Source: Clostridiales bacterium
Lineage (GTDB): Bacteria; Bacillota; Clostridia; Christensenellales; Pumilibacteraceae
Direction: 5' to 3'
DNA length: 64,000 nucleotides
Assembly (NCBI GenBank): GCA_022508445.1
Contig: JAFLVG010000002.1
Coordinates: 62,001-126,000 of the forward strand
Below are positions 1 through 16,486 of this stretch, one piece after another (the stretch's first letter is position 1; each line of letters opens with the position of its first letter). Under the pieces are notes generated by a model. That model had not been told where the DNA came from. It made no database searches and worked only from the letters and a program-made list of their open reading frames with translations. The position numbers and the translations under genes were made by a program.

Positions 1-417
1 TCCGGCGCAAACACAACGCCGCAAAAAGTAGAGCGCGAGCTTCCGAAGTACCACCACAAGATTGATGAGAGTCACATAAAGATTATCGAAACAATCGAAG
101 CCGACTACAAGCGCCGGCAGGGCAATCTCGTCTTAAAACTTTGTAAGTTCATCAAGCCCGAATACTTTGAGCGCGATCCGAACAAAAGGTACAAGGCAAA
201 CGACAACAAACTCAAACGCAGACTCGGCATTTCGCACAGAAATGTAGGAAGGCGGTTTGGAAAGTTCTTTCGCTCGTTCGGTCCGGAGTGCGAATTATTG
301 GAGCGCGACTTTTCACAGCGCTTACAAGAAATCGAAAGGGAAATCGAGCAAGAGAGGGAAAGACAAGCAAAAGCGGAAACGCAACAACTTAAAAAAGAGG
401 AGAATAACAAATATTGA
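1..417 (+). CDS. Hypothetical protein, C-terminal part (5' end outside window), charged/coiled-coil C-terminus
   Basis: Frame 1 is open from base 1 to TGA at 415-417 (SGANTTPQKVERELPKYHHKIDESHIKIIETIEADYKRRQ...KKEENNKY*). Not in the ORF track because its start lies outside the window. Overlaps the TTG start of the next gene by 4 bp, as in an operon. Confidence 0.6.
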   Translation, partial: SGANTTPQKVERELPKYHHKIDESHIKIIETIEADYKRRQGNLVLKLCKFIKPEYFERDPNKRYKANDNKLKRRLGISHRNVGRRFGKFFRSFGPECELLERDFSQRLQEIEREIEQERERQAKAETQQLKKEENNKY

Positions 418-2636
418 ACAGAAAAGAAGCATTTAAGCATAAAAAGCGAAAGTCGCACAAACTCGGCATCGTGCTTTGGGTTTTTATCTTTGCGTTTATG
501 TTCGTGCTCACAATGTTCCTATTCGCTATCGGCGGCGCGGAAAGTATATCCGAAATCATTGGCAACCGTAATTATTGGTTGACCAACGGAGTGATAGACG
601 GACTGCTGCTTGTCGGCTTCTTGATGGTGTATCGAATCGACGCGCAAAACATCGCGCTTAACGAGAACGATTTAGAGGACACCGAATGGCTGTCGGCAAA
701 GCGGCTGAAAAAGCTGAAAGAGTTTACGGTAACGAATTGGAAAGGCGTAAGGGAAACGGACGACGGCATTGTAATCGGTGCGGAAAAGAAAGGCGGCAGC
801 GTAGAGGTTATAACGACAAGTCAGCTTCACGCGCTAATCGTCGGCACGACGGGCAGCGGCAAAACAACGGGATTTGTTGACCAAAACATCTCGGTACTGT
901 CGCGCAGTAAAGGCAAGCCGAGCCTTGTAATATCCGATCCGAAAAAGGAGCTTTACGAGAAACACGCAAAGCACCTTGAAAAAGACGGGTATAAAATCTC
1001 GGTACTCGACTTGCGAGAGCCGTATTCGTCAGAGCGGTGGAATCCTATGAATGTACTTATCCGTCGTATTCGGTTGGTGAAAGAACTCGAATACCACTTG
1101 GAACACAAGGACGGAAAGTATTACGGCGCAGGCGAGGTATTCCTTTCTTTGCGTGACGCGAGAACGAGGATGCAGGAACTCAAAGACGAAATCTACGAGA
1201 ACGCGCAGGACTTGGTTTATACGCTATGTCCCGTACAAAACAAAGACCAGCCGACATGGGAAGAAGGCGCAAGAAATCTTATCTTTGGTTTGGTACTCGC
1301 GTTTTGCGAGGACTGCATTAAAGGCAAGATGGAAGAAAAACAGCTTTTGCTTTTCAACATCTATCACAACATCACTAAATACTGCTCGGAAGATACGACG
1401 GCGCTGAGGGATTACCTTCTTAAAGGGCGCGACGAATTTTCAAAGGTACGCGGTCTTGTAAATACGGTACTCATCACGAGCGATAAAACGCTTACGAGCT
1501 ATCTTTCGGAAGTAAACAGCTATATGCACCAACTATCAGACGACGGTATTATGTCGCTTACAAGCGAGAACGATTTGGACATTATAAACCTCGACGAACA
1601 GCCGAGCGCGGTGTTCATTATCGTGCCGGACGAGAGGTTTACGCGGCATAGGTTTGTAACGCTGTTCATCACGCAGATGTATAAGGAGCTTGTCGAAAAG
1701 GCGAACTTGAACTTGCGCAGAGAGCAGACGAACACAGCTATATTAAAACGCAACACTTACTTCATTCTCGACGAGTTTGCGAACTTACCGAAGTTTGACA
1801 ATATCGAGGGTATGGTAACCGTAGCGCGGTCGCGTGGCATTCGTTTCTTGTTCGTACTTCAAGCGTACTCACAGCTTACGGCTAAGTACGGCAGAGATAT
1901 AGGCGACATCATTAAGACCAACTGCAACGTCAAGATATTTATAGGCTCGGACGATAGCGACACACGCAAAGAGTTTTCAGACTTGTGCGGACAAAAGAAA
2001 GTCAAAAACTTCTCGGTCAACACCAATGCCGAAAATCCTGCGTCGAGCAACACCGGCGCGAGTAACCAACCGCTAATTACGGTTGGAATGCTTGAAAGGC
2101 TGAACGGCGACGAGAAAGGCGACGCGATTGTATCGGTGCGCGGCTATGAGCCTATATGGACGAAGTTCACACCGTCTTACGAACTGAGCGGACTTTACTT
2201 CAAAGAAGGTAAGGCGAGCATCGCAAAGCGCGAAGCGGTATTGTTCGACAAGAACGATTATGTCTTTGACATCACGAGCAAGGGCGGCAACGAAGCAGAG
2301 CGGCTACTGACTGCGATAGAGGAAGAAGAAAACCGCGAGAACGCCGCCGAGATAGAACGGCAAAAGAAACTTGACGAGCTTGACTGCAAGTGGAAAAGCA
2401 TTGAGCAAGAAATTCACATCAAGCTTCAGGAATTTGCAAATTCGCTAAAGCCCGAAGATAAGGAGGCGGTGCTGAAAGTCGATTTAGACGGAATCGTAGC
2501 GCTGCTGTTTATGATCGAGGAGAACTACAATAAAAAGCCGCACAAAGTCCAAAAGATCAGGGAAGTTGCGGAATATGTCAAGGACAAATTGTCCGAAATG
2601 ACAGAACTTCAAAACCAAGCAAAAAAACAAAAATAA
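414..2636 (+). CDS. Type IV secretion coupling protein, VirD4/TraG/TraD family
   Basis: Two N-terminal TM segments, Walker A GTTGSGKTTG, Walker B-like YFILDEFANLPKFD, and VARSRGIRFLFVLQAYSQLTAKYG typical of VirD4/TraG. TTG start. Confidence 0.93.
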   Translation: MNRKEAFKHKKRKSHKLGIVLWVFIFAFMFVLTMFLFAIGGAESISEIIGNRNYWLTNGVIDGLLLVGFLMVYRIDAQNIALNENDLEDTEWLSAKRLKKLKEFTVTNWKGVRETDDGIVIGAEKKGGSVEVITTSQLHALIVGTTGSGKTTGFVDQNISVLSRSKGKPSLVISDPKKELYEKHAKHLEKDGYKISVLDLREPYSSERWNPMNVLIRRIRLVKELEYHLEHKDGKYYGAGEVFLSLRDARTRMQELKDEIYENAQDLVYTLCPVQNKDQPTWEEGARNLIFGLVLAFCEDCIKGKMEEKQLLLFNIYHNITKYCSEDTTALRDYLLKGRDEFSKVRGLVNTVLITSDKTLTSYLSEVNSYMHQLSDDGIMSLTSENDLDIINLDEQPSAVFIIVPDERFTRHRFVTLFITQMYKELVEKANLNLRREQTNTAILKRNTYFILDEFANLPKFDNIEGMVTVARSRGIRFLFVLQAYSQLTAKYGRDIGDIIKTNCNVKIFIGSDDSDTRKEFSDLCGQKKVKNFSVNTNAENPASSNTGASNQPLITVGMLERLNGDEKGDAIVSVRGYEPIWTKFTPSYELSGLYFKEGKASIAKREAVLFDKNDYVFDITSKGGNEAERLLTAIEEEENRENAAEIERQKKLDELDCKWKSIEQEIHIKLQEFANSLKPEDKEAVLKVDLDGIVALLFMIEENYNKKPHKVQKIREVAEYVKDKLSEMTELQNQAKKQK

Positions 2637-2646
2637 GGAGAATAAA

Positions 2647-4149
2647 ATGACAAGAACAAAACACAAATTTTGGGCAATGCTCGGCGTTATGCTTACAATA
2701 GCGCTCGGCATTTCTCTCTGCGGTTTTACGACCGACAAGGCATCCGCGTTTGCGGAAGAAGAACTGTGCGAACACGATTATCAGACCGAAACCGTGAACG
2801 CGACTTGTAAAGACATGGGCTACACGCTCTATACTTGCTCAATCTGCGGCGACAGCTACAAAGACGACTACACCGAAGTCAAAGAGCATAACTACGCCGT
2901 CATCAAGATAGAGCCTACCTGTACGAACAGCGGTTATACCACACATTTCTGCGTGGATTGCGGCTACGAGTATTCGGACGAGTATGTTGTGCCGAACGGA
3001 CATACATTCAAAGACCAAGTTATAGTGGCGACTTGTATAACCGACGGCTATACCATTCACACTTGCGAGGTATGCGATTACGAGTACACCGACAGCGTAG
3101 AGCTTGCGTTCGGGCATAACTATCTTCCCGAAGTAACCGATCCGACTTGCACTGAGGGCGGTTACACCACGCATACTTGCGAACATTGCGAGGACAGCTA
3201 CATAGATACCGAAACGGAAGCAACAGGGCATAGCTACGGCGAGGAAGTCATCGATCCCACTTGCACTGCATTCGGCTTTACTGTCCATCAATGCGCGGAT
3301 TGCAATTCGCGTTATGTAACCGATTATATCAATCCCATCGGACACAGCTTTGTTGATACGGTAGTGGAAGCAACGCCCGATTCGGTTGGTTATACCATAC
3401 ATAAATGTACGACTTGCGAGTACAGCTATCTTTCGGATTTCGTGCGAAGCGGCGAACAGCCTACGGACGCAAAGCAGCCGGAAAAGCCCGAACAGCCGAC
3501 CGAGCCTGAAACGCCCGACAATCCCGATAATCCCGATAACCCCGACAACCCCGATAATCCCGATAATCCGGACGATCCGAGCGAACACGAACACAACTAT
3601 TCGCTAAAGACTGAGCTTTACAGTACGGACAAGCTTATTCATATTTCGTATGTTTGCGAGTGCGGCGCGGAGAACAACGGCGTAGTATCGGTAACTTTCA
3701 CCGAAGAAGGCGGTAACCGTTATGACTTCGTTATAGACGATAGAGGCTTTGTCGATTTCTCGGAAGTAGTGGGCGGTAAGTACGCGGTGGAGATGTTCGA
3801 CGAGAACGGCGAAACTCTTATGTGGTACGAGCTTGAGATCGAAAAGGTGGAAACGCCGGAAACTCCCGACGAGCCTACCGTACCCGATGAGCCTACCACA
3901 CCCGACAATCCCGACAATCCCGATAATCCGGATAACCCTACAACGCCGGACGAGCCTTCCGAACCCGAAACACCCGATGAGCCTACGACTCCCGACGAGC
4001 CGAGCGAAACGGACAAGCCTTCGGAAAGCAAAGAAGATAGCGGCAGCAATGTAGGACTAATTGTCGGACTGCTTATGACGCTTGTTGTACTTTCGGCAGG
4101 CGGTTTGGCGGTGTTCTTTATAATCCGCAAGAAAAGAAAAAACAAATAA
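2647..4149 (+). CDS. Surface protein with about 6 Cys/His repeats, PDNPDNP linkers and C-terminal TM anchor
   Basis: N-terminal signal peptide; repeats of form PTCT..GYTTHTC..C...Y.D......GH.Y; low-complexity PDNPDNPDNP/EPTTPDEPS; C-terminal LIVGLLMTLVVLSAGGLAVFFIIRKKRKNK. Confidence 0.8.
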   Translation: MTRTKHKFWAMLGVMLTIALGISLCGFTTDKASAFAEEELCEHDYQTETVNATCKDMGYTLYTCSICGDSYKDDYTEVKEHNYAVIKIEPTCTNSGYTTHFCVDCGYEYSDEYVVPNGHTFKDQVIVATCITDGYTIHTCEVCDYEYTDSVELAFGHNYLPEVTDPTCTEGGYTTHTCEHCEDSYIDTETEATGHSYGEEVIDPTCTAFGFTVHQCADCNSRYVTDYINPIGHSFVDTVVEATPDSVGYTIHKCTTCEYSYLSDFVRSGEQPTDAKQPEKPEQPTEPETPDNPDNPDNPDNPDNPDNPDDPSEHEHNYSLKTELYSTDKLIHISYVCECGAENNGVVSVTFTEEGGNRYDFVIDDRGFVDFSEVVGGKYAVEMFDENGETLMWYELEIEKVETPETPDEPTVPDEPTTPDNPDNPDNPDNPTTPDEPSEPETPDEPTTPDEPSETDKPSESKEDSGSNVGLIVGLLMTLVVLSAGGLAVFFIIRKKRKNK

Positions 4150-4166: not shown

Positions 4167-4457
4167 ATGATTAATTTATTGTCAGAAGAAACCCTCAACG
4201 GCAGTCTTGCTTCGATTGTCGATAACCTCAAAACGCTGATGGACAGCTTTTGGATCTACATCGTTATCGCTCTTGCGGCGGTAGTCGTTGTTTGGGGCGC
4301 ATACATAGGCATACGAGTTGCCATCGCGCACAAGAACGAGGAAAAGATAAACGCACGAGACATGGTCAAGAACCTTATCATCGGCATAATCATAATCTTC
4401 GTCGTTGCGATGGGCGCGCCTTTGCTTATAAGCGGTCTGTCCGCTTGGGTTGGCTAA
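4167..4457 (+). CDS. Small two-TM protein, probable VirB2/TrbC-like conjugative pilin
   Basis: 96 aa with two hydrophobic helices around a short charged loop (AHKNEEKINARDMVKN), located between the T4CP and the VirB6-like gene. Confidence 0.7.
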   Translation: MINLLSEETLNGSLASIVDNLKTLMDSFWIYIVIALAAVVVVWGAYIGIRVAIAHKNEEKINARDMVKNLIIGIIIIFVVAMGAPLLISGLSAWVG

Positions 4458-4530: not shown

Positions 4531-5709
4531 ATGATAATATTCTTACAAGAATTCTGCTTGCAGCTCTTTCTTTGGCTACTCAAAATGATAGACGGGTTGA
4601 TGAGCATATTCTCGGCTATAACAGGCGTGACGGATGTGACTTATCAAGGACAGAAGGTGAACATAATTGAATACCTCGCCAACTCGACGGGAGTAAGCAC
4701 TATCTTTTGGTGCGTGTTCATCTTGGCTGTAGGACTCGCGTGTATCTTTACAATCGTCGCGCTCATCAAGAACATGATAGCGAACAACAGAAACATATCG
4801 TCGATTGTCGGCAAGTTCTTTTTGGCACTTCTTGGAACATTGGCAATGCTTATCGTTGTCATACTCGGCATCCTTATATCCAATGCGGTATTGGTGCTTG
4901 TGGCGCGAATATTCCAAATTGAGAACACAACCAAAATCTCAAATATGCTGTTCGACGCTTGCGTAGGTGATTGGATAAACGGCTATACCATTTCGGAAAT
5001 AGATGTCACATCATTGTCTGTGCGAAATATATTCGGCGACTACAGCGGATCGATTTGGGATATATGGCCGTATTCGTGGGAAATGGACGGCATGGTAAAT
5101 CCCGAAACCTTTATGTACTTTCCGTCGTTGGTCGCGTCTATCGGCGTGATTATCGCTATGCTTGTTGCGGCAATCAACCTTGCAAAGAGGGTGTACGAGA
5201 TAATTCTGCTTTACATCATTATGCCTGTGTCGCTGTCCACTATTTCTTTGGACGACGGTGCGCGGTTTAAGGTATGGCGCGAAACCTTTATTACCAAGAT
5301 TGTGATTGCCTACGGAACGGTGTTTGCGGTCAATATATTCATATTGCTGCTACCGATGATAACTAAAATGCGTATTCCGGGCATGGGTGGCTTCGGCAAC
5401 TCCATATTCAAAATCATTATGATAATCGGCGGCGCTTTGGTCATTCCGGCAGGACAGCATTTGTTCGCACGACTATTCGGTCAAGCCGACGATCTACACG
5501 CAGGCGGTGGCTTTATACGAAGCGCGTTCTACGGCGGACGAATCGCAGGTGCGCTCACATTCGGAGCTGCGGCAAAGGTGATAGGTGCGGCAACAAAAAA
5601 GAAAAATCAAAACGCAGGTAGCAGTAGTAGTGGCGGAGGCTCAAGCGAAGAAAGCGACGATTCGGGTAGATATTCCGAAGAAAGTTCGGGAGGAGGAAGT
5701 AGTGAATAA
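4531..5709 (+). CDS. VirB6/TrbL-like multi-spanning conjugation protein
   Basis: Multiple TM segments; Ser/Gly-rich cytosolic C-tail; position directly upstream of VirB4 ATPase and downstream of the pilin. Confidence 0.75.
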   Translation: MIIFLQEFCLQLFLWLLKMIDGLMSIFSAITGVTDVTYQGQKVNIIEYLANSTGVSTIFWCVFILAVGLACIFTIVALIKNMIANNRNISSIVGKFFLALLGTLAMLIVVILGILISNAVLVLVARIFQIENTTKISNMLFDACVGDWINGYTISEIDVTSLSVRNIFGDYSGSIWDIWPYSWEMDGMVNPETFMYFPSLVASIGVIIAMLVAAINLAKRVYEIILLYIIMPVSLSTISLDDGARFKVWRETFITKIVIAYGTVFAVNIFILLLPMITKMRIPGMGGFGNSIFKIIMIIGGALVIPAGQHLFARLFGQADDLHAGGGFIRSAFYGGRIAGALTFGAAAKVIGAATKKKNQNAGSSSSGGGSSEESDDSGRYSEESSGGGSSE

Positions 5710-8357
5710 TGAGAATAATCCCTAAAAAAATCAAGGTAAAGAACACTGTGTGGAAGTGTTATTCGATGGTGGACATTATAGTCGCGCTAATCGTATTCGC
5801 AATCATATTCATAGCGGTAACTGCAAAGAATTGGGCGTTTGCCGCAATCATGGGTATAGCGGCGATAGTGCTTTTAATGCCTACGCAGGACGGCATCTTC
5901 TATTCGTGTATCTTTGAGAACATCAAGTTTTTATTCGCCAAAAAGCATTACACGCTTACGGCGAAGAACGCAAAAGAAAATATAGATACGCTTATAGGGC
6001 TGAAAGAGATAAGAGAGAACGGTTTGCTTGCGTACAACGGCGGTACATTTGGCAGAGTTATAAAGGTCGGACAAAAGAACTTCGGCATCGAAGATACGGC
6101 AGAGCAGAATATAGACATCAACTATCTTGCCAATGCTTTGAAGCTCTTGGACGGCACACAAAGCGCGGACATAGTAAAAATCGACCGTCCGGTAACGCTC
6201 GACAACTTTTCGGCAGACCTTTTCGATAAACTTACGGCTATGCAGAACGGTGACGAGCAATCGGAAGTAAAGGCTATAAAGGCAAACATACTGCGCGAAC
6301 GCATTGACCGAATAGACCGTATGAACAATATCCGCAAGCAGTACATTTCCGACTATTATATCGTAGTGTACGGAAAGAACGAAATCGATCTTGAAAATAC
6401 GGCGATAAATATTGCGGCAGACATAAACAAGTGCGGACTAAGTACGAAAATGCTCGGCAATCGTGAAACGGCGGTGTTCCTCAAGTATAGCTATTCACGC
6501 GACTTTGACGAACGCGAGGTAGCGGACATCGAAAGTGACAAACTCACAGAATGGGTAAAGCCGAAAGACATAGAGTTTAGGGCTAATAAGTACATAATCG
6601 ACGGCTTGGAAGCGGCGGTGCTGTCCGTTGCTGAATACCCGTTGCGCGTAAAAAACGCTTGGGGTGCCGAACTGTTTAACATACCTAACACAAAGGTAGT
6701 TATGCACGTCAAGCCTGTTGACAAATTCAAGGCGATTAAACGCATAGACAAGTGCATCGGCGAGATGGAAACGAAGCAAATTCTTTCCGAAAAGGCGAGT
6801 GAAAGCAACAGCGCGGAAACGCACAGGGATACTATGAACTCGCTGCTCGACAGCTTGCAGACAGAAAACGAAAGCCTTTTGGATGTAACGCTTACGGTTA
6901 CTGCGTACAACTATCTGTCCGACGAGAACTACAAGAAAAATGTGCGCCGCGCTATGCTTACGGGTAACTTCAAGCCGTCAATGCTTTACGGTTTGCAGAT
7001 AGAAGGCTTTAAGTCGGCAAACATTTCGCCGATGAGTACGCTTTCAAAGTACGAGCGCGGTATAAACAGCTCGTCGCTTGCTGCGGTATTTCCGTTCGTC
7101 AGGACTTGCGTTATGGACGAGGGCGGCATTATGCTCGGCGAGAACAGGACGAACGGCTATCCGTTCATTTTTAACCTATGGAAACGCGGCGACCTTTACC
7201 AAAACTCCAATGCCATGATAATCGGTAAATCGGGCAGCGGTAAATCGTTCTTTCTCAAAAACCTTATTCTTAACGAATGGGCGAACGGCACGAGGGTAGT
7301 CGTACTCGATCCCGAAGCGGAGTATCTTGCGCTTACTCGGAATCTGTACGGCAATATCATAGATGTCGGCAACGCCAAAGAGGGCAGAATCAATCCCTTT
7401 CATATATATAAGGTGCTTACAGAGGAAGGCACGCCTGCCGATTCTACGGTTACATTCAACACACACTTAAAAACGCTTGAATCGTTCTTCAAAATCGTTC
7501 TCGCCGACGCACCGAAGGATGTAATCGAGCTAATTAACAACCTTGCCGTAGAAACCTACGAGCGTATGGGCATTACCGAAAATACGGATTGTTCGGACTT
7601 TACAGCCGACCGATTTCCGTTGTTCTCGGACTTGCTCGACACTTTACAAGCGAAAGACAAGGAAAACTTGGACGCGCTGACACTTCGGGATATGCGAACG
7701 GCAGAGCTGTATTTGCAGAAATTCGTCGCAGGACGGTATTCGGATATATGGAACGCGCCGTCAACCTTGACCACACAAGCAAACCTCATAGACTTCAATT
7801 TTCAGTCGTTGTTTGCGAACAAGAACAATGTGGTTGCGAACGCGCAAATGCTTTTGGTATTCCGCTTTATAGAGCAGGAAGTCATAAACGCAAGGGAAGC
7901 AAACAAGAGCGGTAAGAACTTGCGGACGATGATAGTCTGCGACGAGGCGCACTTATTCATAGATGCGAAGTTCCCGATAGCGCTCGACTTCTTCTATTCA
8001 ATGTCAAAGCGAATCCGAAAGTACGGCGGCAGCTTCATACCGGCGACACAGAACATAGCCGATTGGAACGCCAACGAAGAATTGCGCGGCAAGACGAGCG
8101 CGATTATTAAGAACAGTCAGTACACATTTATCTTTAAGCTGTCCGCGCCGGATATGAAAGATGTGCTTGATGTCTATTCGGCAGGCGACAGTTTCAACCA
8201 AGAGGAACAGCGTATGATTATCTCCGCAGTGACGGGACAAGCGTTCTTTATAGGCTCGACCGAGCTTCGCGCTTGTATTCGCATAACGGCAGGAGAATAT
8301 ATGCAGGACTTATTCAACGAGGAAATAAAAAAGGAGGATGAACAATTTGAGGACTAA
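5709..8357 (+). CDS. VirB4/TraE-type conjugation ATPase with PrgI/VirB3-like N-terminal membrane segment
   Basis: N-terminal two-TM region (MRIIPKKIKVKNTVWKCYSMVDIIVALIVFAIIFIAVTAKN...); Walker A IGKSGSGKSFF; Walker B TMIVCDEAHLFID; SKRIRKYGGSFIPATQNIADW. Confidence 0.92.
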   Translation: MRIIPKKIKVKNTVWKCYSMVDIIVALIVFAIIFIAVTAKNWAFAAIMGIAAIVLLMPTQDGIFYSCIFENIKFLFAKKHYTLTAKNAKENIDTLIGLKEIRENGLLAYNGGTFGRVIKVGQKNFGIEDTAEQNIDINYLANALKLLDGTQSADIVKIDRPVTLDNFSADLFDKLTAMQNGDEQSEVKAIKANILRERIDRIDRMNNIRKQYISDYYIVVYGKNEIDLENTAINIAADINKCGLSTKMLGNRETAVFLKYSYSRDFDEREVADIESDKLTEWVKPKDIEFRANKYIIDGLEAAVLSVAEYPLRVKNAWGAELFNIPNTKVVMHVKPVDKFKAIKRIDKCIGEMETKQILSEKASESNSAETHRDTMNSLLDSLQTENESLLDVTLTVTAYNYLSDENYKKNVRRAMLTGNFKPSMLYGLQIEGFKSANISPMSTLSKYERGINSSSLAAVFPFVRTCVMDEGGIMLGENRTNGYPFIFNLWKRGDLYQNSNAMIIGKSGSGKSFFLKNLILNEWANGTRVVVLDPEAEYLALTRNLYGNIIDVGNAKEGRINPFHIYKVLTEEGTPADSTVTFNTHLKTLESFFKIVLADAPKDVIELINNLAVETYERMGITENTDCSDFTADRFPLFSDLLDTLQAKDKENLDALTLRDMRTAELYLQKFVAGRYSDIWNAPSTLTTQANLIDFNFQSLFANKNNVVANAQMLLVFRFIEQEVINAREANKSGKNLRTMIVCDEAHLFIDAKFPIALDFFYSMSKRIRKYGGSFIPATQNIADWNANEELRGKTSAIIKNSQYTFIFKLSAPDMKDVLDVYSAGDSFNQEEQRMIISAVTGQAFFIGSTELRACIRITAGEYMQDLFNEEIKKEDEQFED

Positions 8358-11277
8358 AACTAAAAATATCTACATGATACTCGTGCTTATATTGGCGGCA
8401 GCCGCACTTGCGTTCGGTTTGTCGCTGTATGAAGGCGGTCATGCTAATACAGCGTATGCGGCTTCGATGCCGAAGTACACGATGACATTTGCATATACTC
8501 ACTATTATACATACAATACGAGCACTTCGACAGACGGCACTGCAAGCGGAACTACTTCGGCAACGGTTAAGGGTAACGGCGGCAGTAATGTCACTGTAAG
8601 ATTCTATTTATACAGTAGCTCGCAGTCGGGAACGGCAACTCTGCCTATGGGCGGCGCTATATCCGAACGGAATATAACGATTTCAATGGACGGAAGTTGG
8701 CAAACGCGCATGATTACCGTTACGAATAGCGCCGGTACTTCAATGGGATCGTCATATAGCGGATCGTTGTCGTTAAGTAATCTATCCGATGGTACATATA
8801 CGATGACTTGCAAAATGACGGGATCGGGTTGGAATCCGAACAGTCGTGCGTATGCTTATTACAGTATGACCGCGACCTCTATATTCGTTATAGATTCGAC
8901 CGCGCCCACAGTAAGCGGCGCTTCAACATCTACTACGGGCAAATATACCAATTCCGCTTTTACGGTAAGCGCAAGCGATTCCGTCAGCGGTGTAGAAAAT
9001 CTTTACATGAAAGCACCCAACAGCAGTAGCTATACTGCTGTTGGGACTTCAAGAACTGTGACGGCAGGTAGCACAAACGGGCTATACAGCTTTTACGCCA
9101 AAGACAATGCAGGAAATTCTTCCGCAACATACTATGTCTATTACGATACTTCGCTCCCAACGCTAACAATATATCAATCGGGTAGCAGCACGCTCAAAAC
9201 AATAACAGGCGATAGCACGAACACAGCTTTCTATTGTAACGCAAGCGATACGGGTAGTGGCGTAAGCCAAATCGAATATAAGACTCCGACTGCTACTTCG
9301 TGGACAAGGTATTTGTCCGGCGCGGTAATTCAGACATACGATCCAAACGGACTGTATCAGTTTCGTGTGACTGACAAGGCAGGGAATGTATCTGCAACAC
9401 GACTAATTACAAAAGATACGACTAACCCCTCCGGCACGATTTACGGAGAAAATACGGTGGTATCTTCGGGCGGCTCGACAAAAGCCGCCTATATTAAATT
9501 TACAGCTTACGATGCCGATTCGGGCATAGACAAAATTTATGTGCGTAAACCATTTACGGGATCTTATGTACTTTACACAGAAGGAACTCAATTTACCGAG
9601 AACGGATCATATTCATTCTATTGTTTAGATAAAGCAGGTAATTATTCTATTACATATTCGGTAACCTTAGATAATACTGCGCCGGTACTGTCATGTAGCC
9701 AAATCGCATTCTATGAAAAGACGGGATATGACTTCACTGTAAAGGCAACCGACGCTATAAGTAAAGTTACATTGTATTATAAGACGCCGCTTATGACATC
9801 GTATGCGGCGGCAAGCGACGGCAGCTACAGCGTAAAAACAACCGATTCTGACGGAAGATATTACTTCTATGCAGAGGACGCGGTGGGAAACAAATCCGAA
9901 ACAAAATGGATAGAGCTTGCAGTGGCGGTCCCAACTGCCACGATTGAGCGCGACAACAGCACAAACCACTACCGAATTACTTGGGATGATTCGTCCACAG
10001 GTAGATTGAACGATAATCCCTATACCAAAGGAACTTGGATTACGACAGAGGGCGAGTACACATTCGTCATTACAAATTCAAGCAATCGGTCTAATACCTA
10101 TCACTTTACCATCGCGCATGGCTTTGTGCCTGTAGAAACTGTAAAACCGACTTGTACGGATAGGGGCTATACTACTTATAAGTGCCTAACTTGCGATGTT
10201 TCGTATGTGTCAGACTATGTAGATGCAAACGGACATAGCTACGACGAGCAGCTTGTCGGTGAAACTTGTACGGAGGGCGCACACTACTTATATACTTGTT
10301 CGGTGTGTGGTCATCAGTACAAGTCCGAGTATTTGACGGCAGGGGGACATAAGTACGATAAGACGGTTGTGAAAGCGAACTGTACGGATCGCGGCTATAC
10401 AATATATAAGTGTACGGTATGCGACTATACATTCCGCGACGACTACACCGAAGCGCTTGGTCATAATTTCAAGTTGACGGTGTTAGAGCCTACTTGTTTA
10501 GATGGCGGCTATACGACTTACGAGTGTAAGCGTTGCGATTACGAGTATATATCCGACTATACGCAAGCGTTAGGACATAACTATGAGGAAAGCGTGGTCG
10601 ATGCCAACTGTACGGAAAGAGGATACCACTTGCATAAGTGTTCACGCTGTGACGACGAGTATAAAACCGATGAAACTCTCGCGCTCGGTCACTACTATAC
10701 CGAAAGAACGGTGGAAGTATCTTGTACGCAGAACGGTTGTGTACTCCATACTTGTACGCGATGCGGTTACGAGTACGAAACGAATGTTGTTGTAAAACTC
10801 GGTCACAAGTATGTAACCGAAGTAACAATGCCGGCAACTTGTGAGGACGACGGTAACCGTCATTATTTATGTTCTCGCTGTGGCGATCAGTATGACACGC
10901 CAATTCCGGCGTTTGGGCATACCTACGAGATTTCCAACATTCAAACGAACGGGGGAGAAACCGTGCGTACCTATACTTGCTCTATATGCGGTCACAGCTA
11001 TACGCAAGACTTGGGCGATCAGTATGAGGAAGTGTCCAACTATGTTGAATACCTATTCAGACAGTACAGCCCGTATATGTGGTGGGTATTCCTCGCGGTT
11101 GCAGGTGTGTGGTCGATAGCTATGGGTATCGCAATTATTGTTGCCCATAAGAACGAGGACAAGCAAAAGGCGAGAAAGATGCTTGTGAACTATGTCATAG
11201 GCTTGGTAGTTATAGCGGCTATTCTCATTGCGGCCCCGTATTTGGTGCGCGGAATCGCGGCTCTCATTTCGGGATAA
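8338..11277 (+). CDS. Large secreted protein: Ig-like region, 7-8 Cys/His repeats, C-terminal pilin-like two-TM domain
   Basis: Signal-peptide-like N-terminus; repeated Ig-like modules (FYAKDNAGNSSATYYVYYDTS / FRVTDKAGNVSATRLITKDTT); repeats matching those of the 2647-4149 protein; C-terminus VAHKNEDKQKARKMLVNYVIGLVVIAAILIAAPYLVRGIAALISG aligns with the 96-aa pilin. Confidence 0.85.
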   Translation: MNNLRTKTKNIYMILVLILAAAALAFGLSLYEGGHANTAYAASMPKYTMTFAYTHYYTYNTSTSTDGTASGTTSATVKGNGGSNVTVRFYLYSSSQSGTATLPMGGAISERNITISMDGSWQTRMITVTNSAGTSMGSSYSGSLSLSNLSDGTYTMTCKMTGSGWNPNSRAYAYYSMTATSIFVIDSTAPTVSGASTSTTGKYTNSAFTVSASDSVSGVENLYMKAPNSSSYTAVGTSRTVTAGSTNGLYSFYAKDNAGNSSATYYVYYDTSLPTLTIYQSGSSTLKTITGDSTNTAFYCNASDTGSGVSQIEYKTPTATSWTRYLSGAVIQTYDPNGLYQFRVTDKAGNVSATRLITKDTTNPSGTIYGENTVVSSGGSTKAAYIKFTAYDADSGIDKIYVRKPFTGSYVLYTEGTQFTENGSYSFYCLDKAGNYSITYSVTLDNTAPVLSCSQIAFYEKTGYDFTVKATDAISKVTLYYKTPLMTSYAAASDGSYSVKTTDSDGRYYFYAEDAVGNKSETKWIELAVAVPTATIERDNSTNHYRITWDDSSTGRLNDNPYTKGTWITTEGEYTFVITNSSNRSNTYHFTIAHGFVPVETVKPTCTDRGYTTYKCLTCDVSYVSDYVDANGHSYDEQLVGETCTEGAHYLYTCSVCGHQYKSEYLTAGGHKYDKTVVKANCTDRGYTIYKCTVCDYTFRDDYTEALGHNFKLTVLEPTCLDGGYTTYECKRCDYEYISDYTQALGHNYEESVVDANCTERGYHLHKCSRCDDEYKTDETLALGHYYTERTVEVSCTQNGCVLHTCTRCGYEYETNVVVKLGHKYVTEVTMPATCEDDGNRHYLCSRCGDQYDTPIPAFGHTYEISNIQTNGGETVRTYTCSICGHSYTQDLGDQYEEVSNYVEYLFRQYSPYMWWVFLAVAGVWSIAMGIAIIVAHKNEDKQKARKMLVNYVIGLVVIAAILIAAPYLVRGIAALISG

Positions 11278-11307: not shown

Positions 11308-11336
11308 TTGACAAAAGAAATTAACAAGTCTATAAT
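11308..11336 (+). promoter_or_regulatory. Sigma-A-type promoter
   Basis: TTGACA (11308-11313), 17-bp spacer, TATAAT (11331-11336). Confidence 0.8.
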
Positions 11337-12275: not shown

Positions 12276-12443
12276 TTGGACGCTACGGCAGAACAAGAAA
12301 AATGTAAGAAAGAGTTTATATACCTTGCGGCGTACTCGCTTATAAAGCAAGCGCAACAAGAAGGTAGTGTGGACTTAATCGTGTTGGAACGATTAAATAA
12401 CAGATGTGCGGAAAGAATGGGTTGTATGCCTATTCCGCTTTAA
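12276..12443 (+). CDS. 55-aa small protein preceding the recombinases (SHOCT-like small ORF typical of recombinase cassettes)
   Basis: TTG start after AAGGAGTG RBS; MDATAEQEKCKKEFIYLAAYSLIKQAQQEGSVDLIVLERLNNRCAERMGCMPIPL*. Not in the supplied ORF track. Confidence 0.5.
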   Translation: MDATAEQEKCKKEFIYLAAYSLIKQAQQEGSVDLIVLERLNNRCAERMGCMPIPL

Positions 12444-12466
12444 GTAAAACAAGGAGGTGTGCCGCT

Positions 12467-14023
12467 ATGAATGCAGCGAGAGAAATAAGAGTAATACAGC
12501 CGACAAAGCAAGGCGATTCTGCTGAAAAGATCAGAGTAGCGGCATATTGCCGTGTAAGTACAGATTCGAGCGATCAGTTAAATTCGTTCTATGCACAAGT
12601 AAAATACTATACCGATTACATACGAAATAATGACGGTATGCAGCTTGTGGATATTTACGCAGACGAAGGCATAACGGGAACGGCGATTTCCAAACGCGAC
12701 GATTTTAAGCGGCTTGTAGCTGATGTTAAGAAGAAGAAGATAGATAGAGTGCTTGTAAAGAGCGTTACAAGGTTTGCTCGTAATTCGTTGGAGTGCATCG
12801 AAACTGTTAGACTTTTCAAATCTAACGGTACAAGCATATATTTTGAGAACGACAATATCGACACCGAACGGATGAACTCGGAAATGATACTATTTATAAA
12901 GAGTGCATTTGCGCAAGGTGAAGCTATATCCGCATCGCGTCGTATGGCTGTCGCCAACCGAATGAAAATGGCGGACGGAACATACAACCTTGCAAGCGCT
13001 CCGTTCGGATATAGGCTTAGCGAAAACGGACTTGTTGTCGAGCCACAAGAAGCAGAGATTATAAAAAAGATTTTCGAACTTTACTTGTCGGGCATGGGCG
13101 ATTGTCTTATACTGCAATATCTTAAAGAGCGGTATAGCGAGATGTCGTGGTCGATGAAAAGAGTGAGCTATATCTTATCTAATGAAAGGTATATCGGCGA
13201 TTGTCTTTTACAAAAAAGGTTTTCTCCAAATGTATTGCCGTTGACACCAAAAACGAATAGGGGTGAACTGCCAAAGTATTACTATGAGGGAACGCACGAG
13301 CCGATTGTATCCAAAGAAGTCTTTGATAAAGTCCAATCTATGCGAAAAGAAAAACGCGATAGGTACACACGAAATGACGGTAAGGAAATTCGCAAGGAGT
13401 TTTTTACTAAAAAGGTCTATTGTAGACATTGCGGTTGGGCTTATAGCAAAAAGTGGAGAAATGGCGAATTGTTTTGGCGTTGTCGTAAGCAAGGCACGAC
13501 AGCGGACGAGTGCAGAACACCGCCACAAGCAGATAGCGTTCTCCGGCAAGCATTTATAAAGATGTTCAATACATTAAAGCAGAACAGCAGGGTGGTCATT
13601 CACGAAACGCTTTTGCAACTTCAAACATTGAAAATGAAAGTGAGCGGAGGCAGGGATGAGATTATAGAGATTGACAAAGAGCTTGTTACCTTGTCCGAGC
13701 AAAACCGTATATATTCGGAATTGTTCGCTCAGCACATTCTGGACGAGGTTTCGTACTATGAACAAACGGACAAATTGAAAAATAAAATGACCGAGTTGCG
13801 TAGCAGGCGCTTGAAAATCTTAAACGACGACGAAGAAGAGAACTGCTTAGAGCATTTACGCAAATTGGAACGAGTTGTAACGGATACTGAATTTATAACC
13901 GTATTTGATGAAAAGTTGTTCGACGATATAGTTGAGCGTATCTTTATCGAAGAAAACGGTGGAATATCGTTTAGGATGCATTGCGGTCTTGAGTTTAAAG
14001 TGAATATGGAGGACGGTTTATGA
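12467..14023 (+). CDS. Large serine recombinase 1
   Basis: ATG at 12467 preceded by AAGGAGGT (track ORF begins at 12404); catalytic motif VAAYCRVSTDSSDQL, YADEGITGT, recombinase domain, CxxC zinc ribbon, coiled coil. Confidence 0.93.
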   Translation: MNAAREIRVIQPTKQGDSAEKIRVAAYCRVSTDSSDQLNSFYAQVKYYTDYIRNNDGMQLVDIYADEGITGTAISKRDDFKRLVADVKKKKIDRVLVKSVTRFARNSLECIETVRLFKSNGTSIYFENDNIDTERMNSEMILFIKSAFAQGEAISASRRMAVANRMKMADGTYNLASAPFGYRLSENGLVVEPQEAEIIKKIFELYLSGMGDCLILQYLKERYSEMSWSMKRVSYILSNERYIGDCLLQKRFSPNVLPLTPKTNRGELPKYYYEGTHEPIVSKEVFDKVQSMRKEKRDRYTRNDGKEIRKEFFTKKVYCRHCGWAYSKKWRNGELFWRCRKQGTTADECRTPPQADSVLRQAFIKMFNTLKQNSRVVIHETLLQLQTLKMKVSGGRDEIIEIDKELVTLSEQNRIYSELFAQHILDEVSYYEQTDKLKNKMTELRSRRLKILNDDEEENCLEHLRKLERVVTDTEFITVFDEKLFDDIVERIFIEENGGISFRMHCGLEFKVNMEDGL

Positions 14024-14928
14024 GAAATAGAATGTTGCCGCTCGGTTATGGCATAGAGAACGGTGAGATAGTAGTAAACGAACAAGAAGCAGAAATAGTC
14101 AAAAGTATATTCGACGAATATTGCAATGGAAGTTCCTTAAAGACTTTGGTTAATAACCTAAATGAGCGAAATGTTATGTTCACGGCAGGTAAAGCTCAAT
14201 GGAATAAGGGCAGAATACACCATATACTTACTGATCTCAGATATACAGGGATTAAGGCGTTTCCGCAGATAATCAATCCTGACACATTCAATAAAGCAAT
14301 TCACTTCAAAAACAGTAAGAGCATAAGCAAACGTGAGATAAGTTCTGAAGCCGAATATCTGAAAGAAAAAGTGTTTTGCGGAAAGTGCGGCAGTCGATAT
14401 GTTCGTATTATTGACAGCAACAAAAAAGAGAGGTGGGTATGTGCCAACGGTTGTAAGTTTGGGCGCAGACCTACCGATCTACTACTATTATCTGCAATTC
14501 AAGCGATAGTGTTAAGAGTAAACGAAAACCGAGAATTGTTATTACAGCAACCGAGAGATACGGGTTATACTCGAACGCTTGAAATAATGAGGTTGACGAA
14601 CGAGATTGCGCGATTGAATGAGCAAATTTCGCCAAGCTTCAATACAGGTAAGACTTTACTGTTTCAAATTGCCGAAAGCAAGTTTTCGGCTTGCAAAGAA
14701 GACAAGAGTATTTATACCGATTATGTTCTTGAGCAGATACATAATACCATCGAGCGAGGTGGTGTGGATGTGCCGTTCATAAAGAACTCCGTTCACAAAG
14801 TATTGATTACCGGAAAGAATGAGTATGAGATAGTGTTTGTGAACGGTGCAAGAATATCTAATAAGGAGGTGACGGAAGGTGCAAGCAAAACTTGTAACAA
14901 AGATAGACGCGAATCCATTACTGTCTAA
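14020..14928 (+). CDS. Serine-recombinase-related protein lacking the N-terminal catalytic domain
   Basis: Begins directly in the recombinase domain (LGYGIENGEIVVNEQEAEIVKSIFDEYCNGSSLKTLVNNLNERNV), followed by a Cys-rich ribbon (VFCGKCGSRYV...CANGC); no YxRxS motif; start overlaps upstream stop (ATGA). Confidence 0.85.
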   Translation: MRNRMLPLGYGIENGEIVVNEQEAEIVKSIFDEYCNGSSLKTLVNNLNERNVMFTAGKAQWNKGRIHHILTDLRYTGIKAFPQIINPDTFNKAIHFKNSKSISKREISSEAEYLKEKVFCGKCGSRYVRIIDSNKKERWVCANGCKFGRRPTDLLLLSAIQAIVLRVNENRELLLQQPRDTGYTRTLEIMRLTNEIARLNEQISPSFNTGKTLLFQIAESKFSACKEDKSIYTDYVLEQIHNTIERGGVDVPFIKNSVHKVLITGKNEYEIVFVNGARISNKEVTEGASKTCNKDRRESITV

Positions 14929-16486
14929 ACATACAAACGAAAATGCGCTTTTGCGCGTGGCGGCGTATTGCCGAGTAAGTACAGATGCGAACGATCAGTT
15001 AGAAAGTTATAAAGCGCAGGTTGCATACTATTCCGACGCTATTGCCAAAAATCCGCGTTGGCGGTTTGTTGATATTTACGCCGATGAGGGTATAACGGGA
15101 ACGCAAGATAAAAAGCGTAAAGACTTTATGCGTATGATAAGGGACTGCAACAAGGGTAAAATAGACTTGATCCTTACAAAATCAGTTGCGCGGTTTGCTC
15201 GTAATACAGTAGATAGCTTGAAATATGTTCGTCAGTTGAAAGCTATGGGAATAGGAGTGTTCTTTGAGGAACAAAACCTTGATTCTCTGAAAGCGGATAG
15301 CGAAATGTTAATAGGCTTTCACAGCGTAATGGCACAAGCTGAGAGCGAGAACATAAGCGCAAATGTTCGTTGGGGAATACAGCAGCGTATGAAATCAGGG
15401 ACATTCGCTTTTCGCTACAATATAATAGGATATAGGAAAGGCGCGGACGGGCAACCCGAAATAGTACCCGAAGAAGCGGAGATAGTAAAAAAAGTATATG
15501 AGATGTTTTTGTTCGGTAACAGTATAGACCAAATCAAAGCGTACTTGGAAGCAAAGCAGATCAAAACTCGCAAGGGTAAAACTGTTTGGGAAAAACACGC
15601 CATACGGAATATGCTTACAAACGAACGCTACACCGGCGATATGTTATTGCAAAAAACCTATACAGAGAATCCGATTTCCAAAAAAGTCAAGAAGAATCGT
15701 GGTGAAATGGCGAAGTACCTTGTATCTAACAATCATCCGGCGATTATTGACAAGGACACGTTTAAGTTAGTGCAGATGGAAATGGCAAAGCGTAGCAACA
15801 AGCGCGTCACCTCTGATTTGAGTATAACTGGTAAAGGAAAGTACAGCGGTAAATGCGCTTTGACGGATTTACTTGTTTGCGGAGAGTGCGGTAGCGCATA
15901 CAGGCGTAGGACTTGGACGAAGAAAGGCAAGAGTAAAAAAGTGTGGCGATGTTTGAGTAGGCTGGAACACGGAACGGAATTTTGCAAGCATTCCATTAGC
16001 GTGGACGAAACCAAACTCAATGAAGCGATACATCGGGCGATGAGAAAAATAACAGAGCAGCGCGAAGCCTTTAATCTGATTTTTTCGGAACTGTCTTATG
16101 CGGCTACGGGCGATGATACAGTTCTTGATGTTGGCGCAATAGAGCAGGAGATAGCTACATTGGTGGAAACGAGCAATAGCTATGTAGCACTTATGGCATC
16201 GACCGAAGGCGACAAAGAACGGTACAGAACAGAGATTGTAAACATAAACCAAAAGATAACCGTACTTCGCGGCGAGCTTGAACGGGTAAAAGCTGTGATA
16301 GCGTCGAGTGAAAAAGTCAACATAGAAATCGAGCGACTGAAAAAGCTATTTGAGAATATGGGCAACGCTTTCAATCTTACTGACGAGATGATCCTGCGGC
16401 GAATGGTGGAGTACATACGAGTAATGAGCGAAGGTAAGATTATAGTGGTATTCAAAGGCGGGATGATAGTTGAAGAATATTTGTAA
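14879..16486 (+). CDS. Large serine recombinase 3
   Basis: GTG start after AAGGAGGT; VAAYCRVSTDANDQL, YADEGITGTQDKKR, recombinase domain, LVCGECGSAYRRR zinc ribbon, coiled coil. Confidence 0.93.
   Translation: MQAKLVTKIDANPLLSKHTNENALLRVAAYCRVSTDANDQLESYKAQVAYYSDAIAKNPRWRFVDIYADEGITGTQDKKRKDFMRMIRDCNKGKIDLILTKSVARFARNTVDSLKYVRQLKAMGIGVFFEEQNLDSLKADSEMLIGFHSVMAQAESENISANVRWGIQQRMKSGTFAFRYNIIGYRKGADGQPEIVPEEAEIVKKVYEMFLFGNSIDQIKAYLEAKQIKTRKGKTVWEKHAIRNMLTNERYTGDMLLQKTYTENPISKKVKKNRGEMAKYLVSNNHPAIIDKDTFKLVQMEMAKRSNKRVTSDLSITGKGKYSGKCALTDLLVCGECGSAYRRRTWTKKGKSKKVWRCLSRLEHGTEFCKHSISVDETKLNEAIHRAMRKITEQREAFNLIFSELSYAATGDDTVLDVGAIEQEIATLVETSNSYVALMASTEGDKERYRTEIVNINQKITVLRGELERVKAVIASSEKVNIEIERLKKLFENMGNAFNLTDEMILRRMVEYIRVMSEGKIIVVFKGGMIVEEYL

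Follow-up and report, generated by a model that had tools for sequence, protein, structure and literature searches.

The window (the whole 64,000-nucleotide stretch of Clostridiales DNA analysed here) encodes, in this order, a MobL relaxase, VirD4, a companion surface protein, a short pilin, VirB6, VirB4, a large surface protein ending in a pilin-like tail (referred to below as the fusion), a TnpV-like frame, and three serine recombinases (Table 1). The relaxase, VirD4, VirB6, VirB4, and the recombinases constitute an ICE gene set in one unit; a non-exhaustive scan recognized no VirB1, VirB5, or VirB8 among the proteins scanned. The middle one of the three overlapping recombinases has no recognized resolvase catalytic domain. 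In two related elements a 623-aa frame interrupts the VirB4 gene (L071:2858-8247 and L081:2-3603); judged by its sequence, the frame in L071 is a reverse transcriptase, and the insertion is probably a group II intron.

Table 1. Features of the conjugation locus and of the fusion protein, in window positions.
Feature	Position	Strand	Basis or remark
MobL relaxase gene, 3' end	1..417	+	PF18555, E 2.6e-17; gene begins left of the window (L035:14080-15417)
VirD4-type coupling protein	414..2636	+	NF045973, 255.6 bits (cut-off 250); PF02534, E 7e-49
Companion surface protein	2647..4149	+	signal peptide, Cys/His repeats, Pro-rich stalk, ordinary single C-terminal TM anchor
Short pilin, 96 aa	4167..4457	+	PF18895, NF045849, helix-loop-helix model
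VirB6-type polytopic membrane protein	4531..5709	+	NF045848, E 1.6e-54
VirB4-type ATPase, N-terminal membrane segment	5709..8357	+	NF045975, E 2e-169; PF19044, E 3e-13
Pilin-tailed surface protein (fusion)	8338..11277	+	ORF, 979 aa from ATG 8338
Predicted signal peptide, residues 1-41, ...ANTAYA/A	8338..8460	+	helix 10-31 in AlphaFold2 model, AxA motifs
Ectodomain, Ig-like beta domains, residues 42-598	8461..10131	+	NF047446, DUF7743, beta model, Foldseek
Cys/His repeat stalk, residues 599-894	10132..11019	+	repeat analysis and model
C-terminal pilin-type hairpin, residues 895-979	11020..11274	+	blastp, HMM, profile-profile, AlphaFold2 helices 895-938 and 942-978
Three serine recombinase genes (12404-14023, 14020-14928, 14879-16486)	12404..16486	+	PF00239/PF07508; right end of the element

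The fusion gene overlaps the end of the VirB4 gene (stop codon 8355-8357). The frame that the sequence-only reading had assigned to it, 8338-11277 (979 aa), stands, but translation probably begins elsewhere: the ribosome-binding site AAAGGAGG (8330-8337) abuts ATG 8338 and has normal spacing to an in-frame TTG at 8347. Because the site touches the ATG, TTG 8347 is the likelier start, and the N-terminus probably reads MRTKTKN.... The signal peptide is poorly conserved among relatives (21% median identity), with AxA motifs in most of them. It is followed by the Ig-like part (42-598), the Cys/His repeats (606-861), and finally the hairpin; the large secreted Ig-like and Cys/His ectodomain described earlier is borne out by the secretion features and the beta model. 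In a motif scan, neither of the window proteins at 2647-4149 and 8338-11277 had an LPxTG, and of the looser LPxTG-like patterns matched in some relatives, none lies ahead of a sorting-type C-terminus. A perfect TTGACA-17-TATAAT (11308-11336) is located just 3' of the fusion gene, ahead of the TnpV-like frame, and this promoter-like site suggests that a new transcription unit might begin there.

The Ig-like part matches NCBIfam NF047446 (OmpL47-type, E 1e-19) in four stretches and Pfam DUF7743 (E 6e-7), and the pLDDT of the AlphaFold2 beta model is mostly above 85. Foldseek searches with the model of the ectodomain pointed to GhpA and SiiE, surface proteins built like strings of beads, at 9-19% identity; these alignments reflect repeat geometry, and the likeness is structural only. 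The stalk is composed of seven C-x9-C-x2-C-H units with a 38-residue period and a final CxxC. Each unit potentially forms a zinc site, which three Cys and one His would suit. Between elements, the stalk has from 4 to 13 CxxC pairs; the head as well as the stalk varies in length among relatives, and two fusions (L058 and L059) have a small head only. A spacer that crosses the wall and bears an exchangeable head would be expected to vary in this way. The 38-residue Cys/His repeat is common to the fusion and the companion protein of the same operon. The position of the companion, between VirD4 and the short pilin, is conserved.

The sequence-only reading had counted 18 identities in 40 positions between the fusion tail and the short pilin, from AHKNE onward. 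The count is exact, and the TM-loop-TM layout ascribed to both proteins reappears as helix-loop-helix in both AlphaFold2 models, with modest confidence (helices 2-56 and 63-95 in the short pilin, 895-938 and 942-978 in the fusion; pLDDT 74-86 over most of the short pilin, about 41-61 in the hairpin of the full-length model). A blastp comparison of the last 85 residues of the fusion with the short pilin gives 21 identities in 51 positions (41%, E 2e-10). An HMM built from 18 short pilins alone scores the window fusion at 49.1 bits (E 9e-14 among 3,431 ORFs) and all VirB4-adjacent fusions at 37.8-59.6 bits, compared with 12 bits for the best ORF not recognized as a pilin. In profile-profile comparisons, the fusion tails match the short pilins with an E-value of 1.5e-17, the pilins of distant elements with 4.5e-13, and the VirB6 control with 0.11; the proposed similarity beyond generic TM composition thus withstands this check. 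Pilin and VirB6 profiles show no significant similarity in the clade of the window (E 0.11 and 0.39). The consensus sequences of tail and short pilin share 29 of 74 residues in register and 4-12 in any of 16 slid registers, and none of 10,000 shuffles within the helix, loop, and helix segments reached 29 identities (maximum 18). Since the agreement is confined to one register and is unreached by shuffles, generic membrane composition does not explain it. The two families also have 14 fixed residues in common, the loop NE.K..A among them, and their charges are alike, with a basic loop and an acidic outer flank; the end of the fusion coincides with the end of the pilin. Judged by these comparisons, the C-terminal hairpin of the fusion is homologous to the short pilin at 4167-4457.

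The family most often matched among the tails and the short and distant pilins is PF18895 (T4SS_pilin), which is recognized in 18/18 short pilins, 15/15 fusion tails, and 8/8 distant pilins, one of the latter at 47.2 bits. The window short pilin scores 26.1 bits against a cut-off of 26.6, and the fusion tail scores 20.5-23.4 bits, below the same cut-off. The short pilin matches NF045849 (Mbov_0395 pilin-like) as well, with an E-value of 2.5e-5. PF04956 (TrbC/VirB2) has no listed match for the window proteins and is matched weakly by three of the eight distant pilins (E 0.019 at best). As a label for these hairpins, VirB2-type is therefore approximate. The traits of PF18895 pilins are present according to the models and charges (two long helices and a short basic loop at the protein end), as is their setting, encoded together with VirB6, VirB4, and VirD4. 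A Foldseek search of the PDB with the short-pilin model gave no match, and HMM searches of PDB sequences with the pilin profiles gave nothing meaningful. At least one pilin gene lies beside VirB6 in the elements whose contig includes that part. Three elements have tandem short pilins, one of each pair being C-terminally extended (L036:14648-15296 on the minus strand, L067:6312-6954, and L076:416-1077); they recall the pilin arrays of Patescibacteria.

Relatives of VirB4 were collected from whole genomes and GTDB species genomes. The presence of the fusion beside VirB4 in related elements, anticipated from the window, was found in 19 distinct elements (VirB4 identity at least about 67%), where an intact fusion of 578-1028 aa directly follows VirB4; the count includes the window, three elements from one MAG, and duplicate contigs under two handles once each. 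In all 19 fusions the pilin tail comprises the last 84-85 residues, and in many of these elements the VirB4 stop and the start of the fusion share a 4-nt overlap. The same tail occurs on a long frame in about seven further matches (G007, G052, G053, G648, G793, and two IMG/VR contigs), which brings the total to about two dozen related elements. Nearly all titled records are Clostridia or Clostridiales MAGs, including Candidatus Borkfalkia, and one record with the fusion is labelled Bacilli; in L067, labelled Lachnospiraceae, only the start of the fusion gene is present, at the contig end. An order-wide search recovered tails of the fusion type at 147-167 bits, nearly all on long frames, and short pilins at 61-63 bits. 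Among elements with VirB4 at about 34-51% identity, a short pilin or none was recognized, and no fusion of the window type was found. Searching a plasmid collection with the fusion protein (P0001) returned matches with Ig-like or Cys/His similarity only, none covering 80%.

The fusion gene is interrupted in two cases, by an in-frame TAG in L039/G037:C5 and by a split frame in L055, with the rest of the operon remaining; unless these breaks are assembly errors, the gene may be dispensable. L074 has a shortened copy of the fusion, and the locus is rearranged in L079.

Several other long-frame matches of the pilin type were not further fusions of the window kind: those in G390 and G494 are VirB6-type proteins. 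Going by their location and their TM pattern, the matches in G1008 and G1055 are VirB6-like proteins that end in a pilin-type hairpin, and the ones in G1187 and G954 fall in VirB6-like frames. In other Bacillota, two VirB6-like proteins encoded directly after VirB4 (L151:5119-6591 and L152:3694-5127, both on the minus strand) have a C-terminal hairpin of the PF18895 type, the best matches for this VirB6-pilin fusion being 55.7 and 42.8 bits. Pilin models also weakly match hairpins at the N-terminus of some proteins of the VirB6 family (E about 1e-4 to 4e-6; the window pilin at 4167-4457 against NF045848 and NF045889, and L096 and L097), which hints that VirB2 and VirB6 hairpins either have a common ancestor or converged on similar packing.

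In a hairpin tree of 84 columns, which is weakly resolved, the tails of all fusions group together (99/99) and are separated from the short pilins, with a stem branch of 1.7 changes per column; the one 'short' row in this clade comes from the broken L055 gene and represents a fragment of its tail. A second family of pilin-tailed proteins (264-291 aa with a signal peptide; L061, L067, and L071) nests within the short-pilin clade and is a second, independent fusion. Its members are encoded in pairs just before VirB6 (L061:3-797 and 800-1630; L071:3-824 and 809-1663; L067:7103-7978 and 7993-8859), the pair in L067 coming after two short pilins. Their N-terminal domain differs from that of the large fusions, and Pfam found nothing outside the tail in the two proteins tested. 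Distant elements encode Ig-repeat proteins of 846-1956 aa beside the short pilin, most of them on an ordinary single TM anchor, and the repeats of these proteins match the window ectodomain (E 3e-43 for L042). The fusion thus seems to have arisen when a pilin tail was joined to an Ig-type adhesin that the element already had. Four giants of 1320-1956 aa with Ig repeats and a single TM anchor (L042:8534-14404, L048:11899-16215, and L054:13846-17808, all on the minus strand, and L049:1349-6703) are located between VirD4 and the short pilin.

The fusion is more likely than not an accessory adhesin-pilin, that is, a secreted protein which is held by its pilin hairpin, is directed by it to the T4SS, and helps to hold the recipient. 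The signal peptide would export the protein, leaving the Ig-like head and the Cys/His stalk outside, and the C-terminal hairpin, derived from the pilin family, would reside in the membrane, its basic loop facing inward; the side of the loop NE.K..A is predicted to be cytoplasmic or lumenal. The tail could then recognize the T4SS assembly of the short major pilin (the VirB6 platform, the pilin pool, and the base or tip of a filament, if any), so that the large ectodomain would be displayed at the transfer apparatus and might grip the recipient. The tail may be incorporated in a filament, and the protein may act in adhesion and in recipient selectivity, the last being the least supported step. 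The data equally allow a hairpin that is stationary in the membrane at the channel, with the ectodomain crossing the wall; of filament entry, capping, and channel residence, only channel residence needs no pilus. As a counterpoint to the adhesin-pilin reading, tail and short pilin are homologous but no longer close (41% over 51 aa), and the tail may have another partner. More tentatively, and with considerable doubt, one may envisage a Gram-positive conjugative filament whose minor subunits are pilins with adhesin heads of 500-900 residues, the exchange of heads on a fixed tail setting the recipient range. One polypeptide would in that case both join the pilus and grip the recipient. To our knowledge, no Gram-positive conjugative filament has been established.

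A role as a stationary T4SS subunit without any filament appears somewhat unlikely. The tail would then belong to a membrane ring or channel, VirB2-like or VirB6-associated, and the stalk would lift the Ig head through the thick wall. The wide range of stalk lengths suits such a spacer, conjugative pili are said to be absent from Gram-positive systems (PMC12857230), and pilin-type hairpins are also found inside VirB6-type proteins of other Bacillota. However, nearly every checkable element has a separate short pilin, as in pilus-making systems, and the Gram-positive-type T4SSs of Patescibacteria have essential VirB2-like pilins (PMC12857230, PMC12102498).

That the tail is a mere membrane anchor, a spare pilin hairpin borrowed by a surface adhesin with no link to the T4SS, is quite improbable, even if the tails have diverged from the short pilins into their own clade and related giants manage with an ordinary TM anchor. 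An alignment of 17 fusions gives median pairwise identities of 33% for the Ig-like part, 42% for the Cys/His part, and 70% for the tail (VirB4 and the short pilin, for comparison, reach 77% and 80%); the tail is almost as constrained as VirB4, and the ectodomain is not. Where both were compared, in nine elements, the companion's ordinary TM anchor is 36% conserved versus 72% for the hairpin, and because of this difference the hairpin probably does more than anchor. The residues fixed in both pilin families, including the loop motif, and the constant place after VirB4 also argue against a mere anchor. The hairpin would instead have a specific partner, most simply the T4SS. Still less probable is a structural wall sleeve or matrix protein that would stabilize the machine in the wall, its Cys/His repeats pairing with the ones in the companion at 2647-4149: the repeat common to both proteins and the small heads of L058 and L059 would fit, but the varied Ig-like head of most members, a typical adhesin part, would be left unexplained.

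Gram-positive T4SSs have been described as lacking VirB2 subunits, with the exception of Patescibacteria, and as often employing wall-anchored adhesins (2025 review, PMC12857230); a 2025 genome study agrees (PMC12102498). The present elements of gut Clostridia encode a short pilin together with an adhesin-like protein on a pilin tail. This makes several matters testable: how a monoderm T4SS contacts its recipient, whether it builds a filament, and whether partners change by head exchange as the element spreads among families.

Like the PF18895 pilins (VirB2-like, including the Mbov_0395-type of mycoplasma elements, NF045849), the tail is a helix-loop-helix of about 70 residues encoded next to VirB6 and VirB4; the known ones are short, whereas the window fusion has about 890 residues, mostly extracellular, before the hairpin. 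In Patescibacteria, too, a Gram-positive-type T4SS is accompanied by VirB2-like pilins, arranged in arrays (PMC12102498; Wang et al. 2023 via PMC12857230). These are ordinary pilins; no adhesins of the PrgB type are reported in PMC12102498, and no fusion to an adhesin is described in the passages considered. Gram-positive plasmids have large surface proteins that serve conjugation, namely PrgB and other adhesins with an LPxTG motif (PMC12857230), and the abstract of PMC8092201 describes a thioester adhesin required for conjugation in Bacillus subtilis. PrgB-type adhesins are anchored to the wall by sortase, whereas the window fusion lacks LPxTG and ends in a pilin hairpin. If the fusion contacts the recipient at the T4SS, its role would be equivalent to that of the VirB5 tip proteins of Gram-negative pili (PMC12857230), although VirB5 is a protein in its own right. 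The grappling-hook protein GhpA of Aureispira and SiiE of Salmonella also contain strings of Ig-like beta domains. We know of no pilin domain in VirB5 and of no pilin tail in GhpA or SiiE. Literature searches of open-licence papers turned up no earlier account of a conjugation protein in which a pilin is fused to an adhesin. The parts, i.e., the pilin hairpin, the Ig-like adhesin, and the ICE, are known; their combination in Gram-positive conjugation appears to be new.
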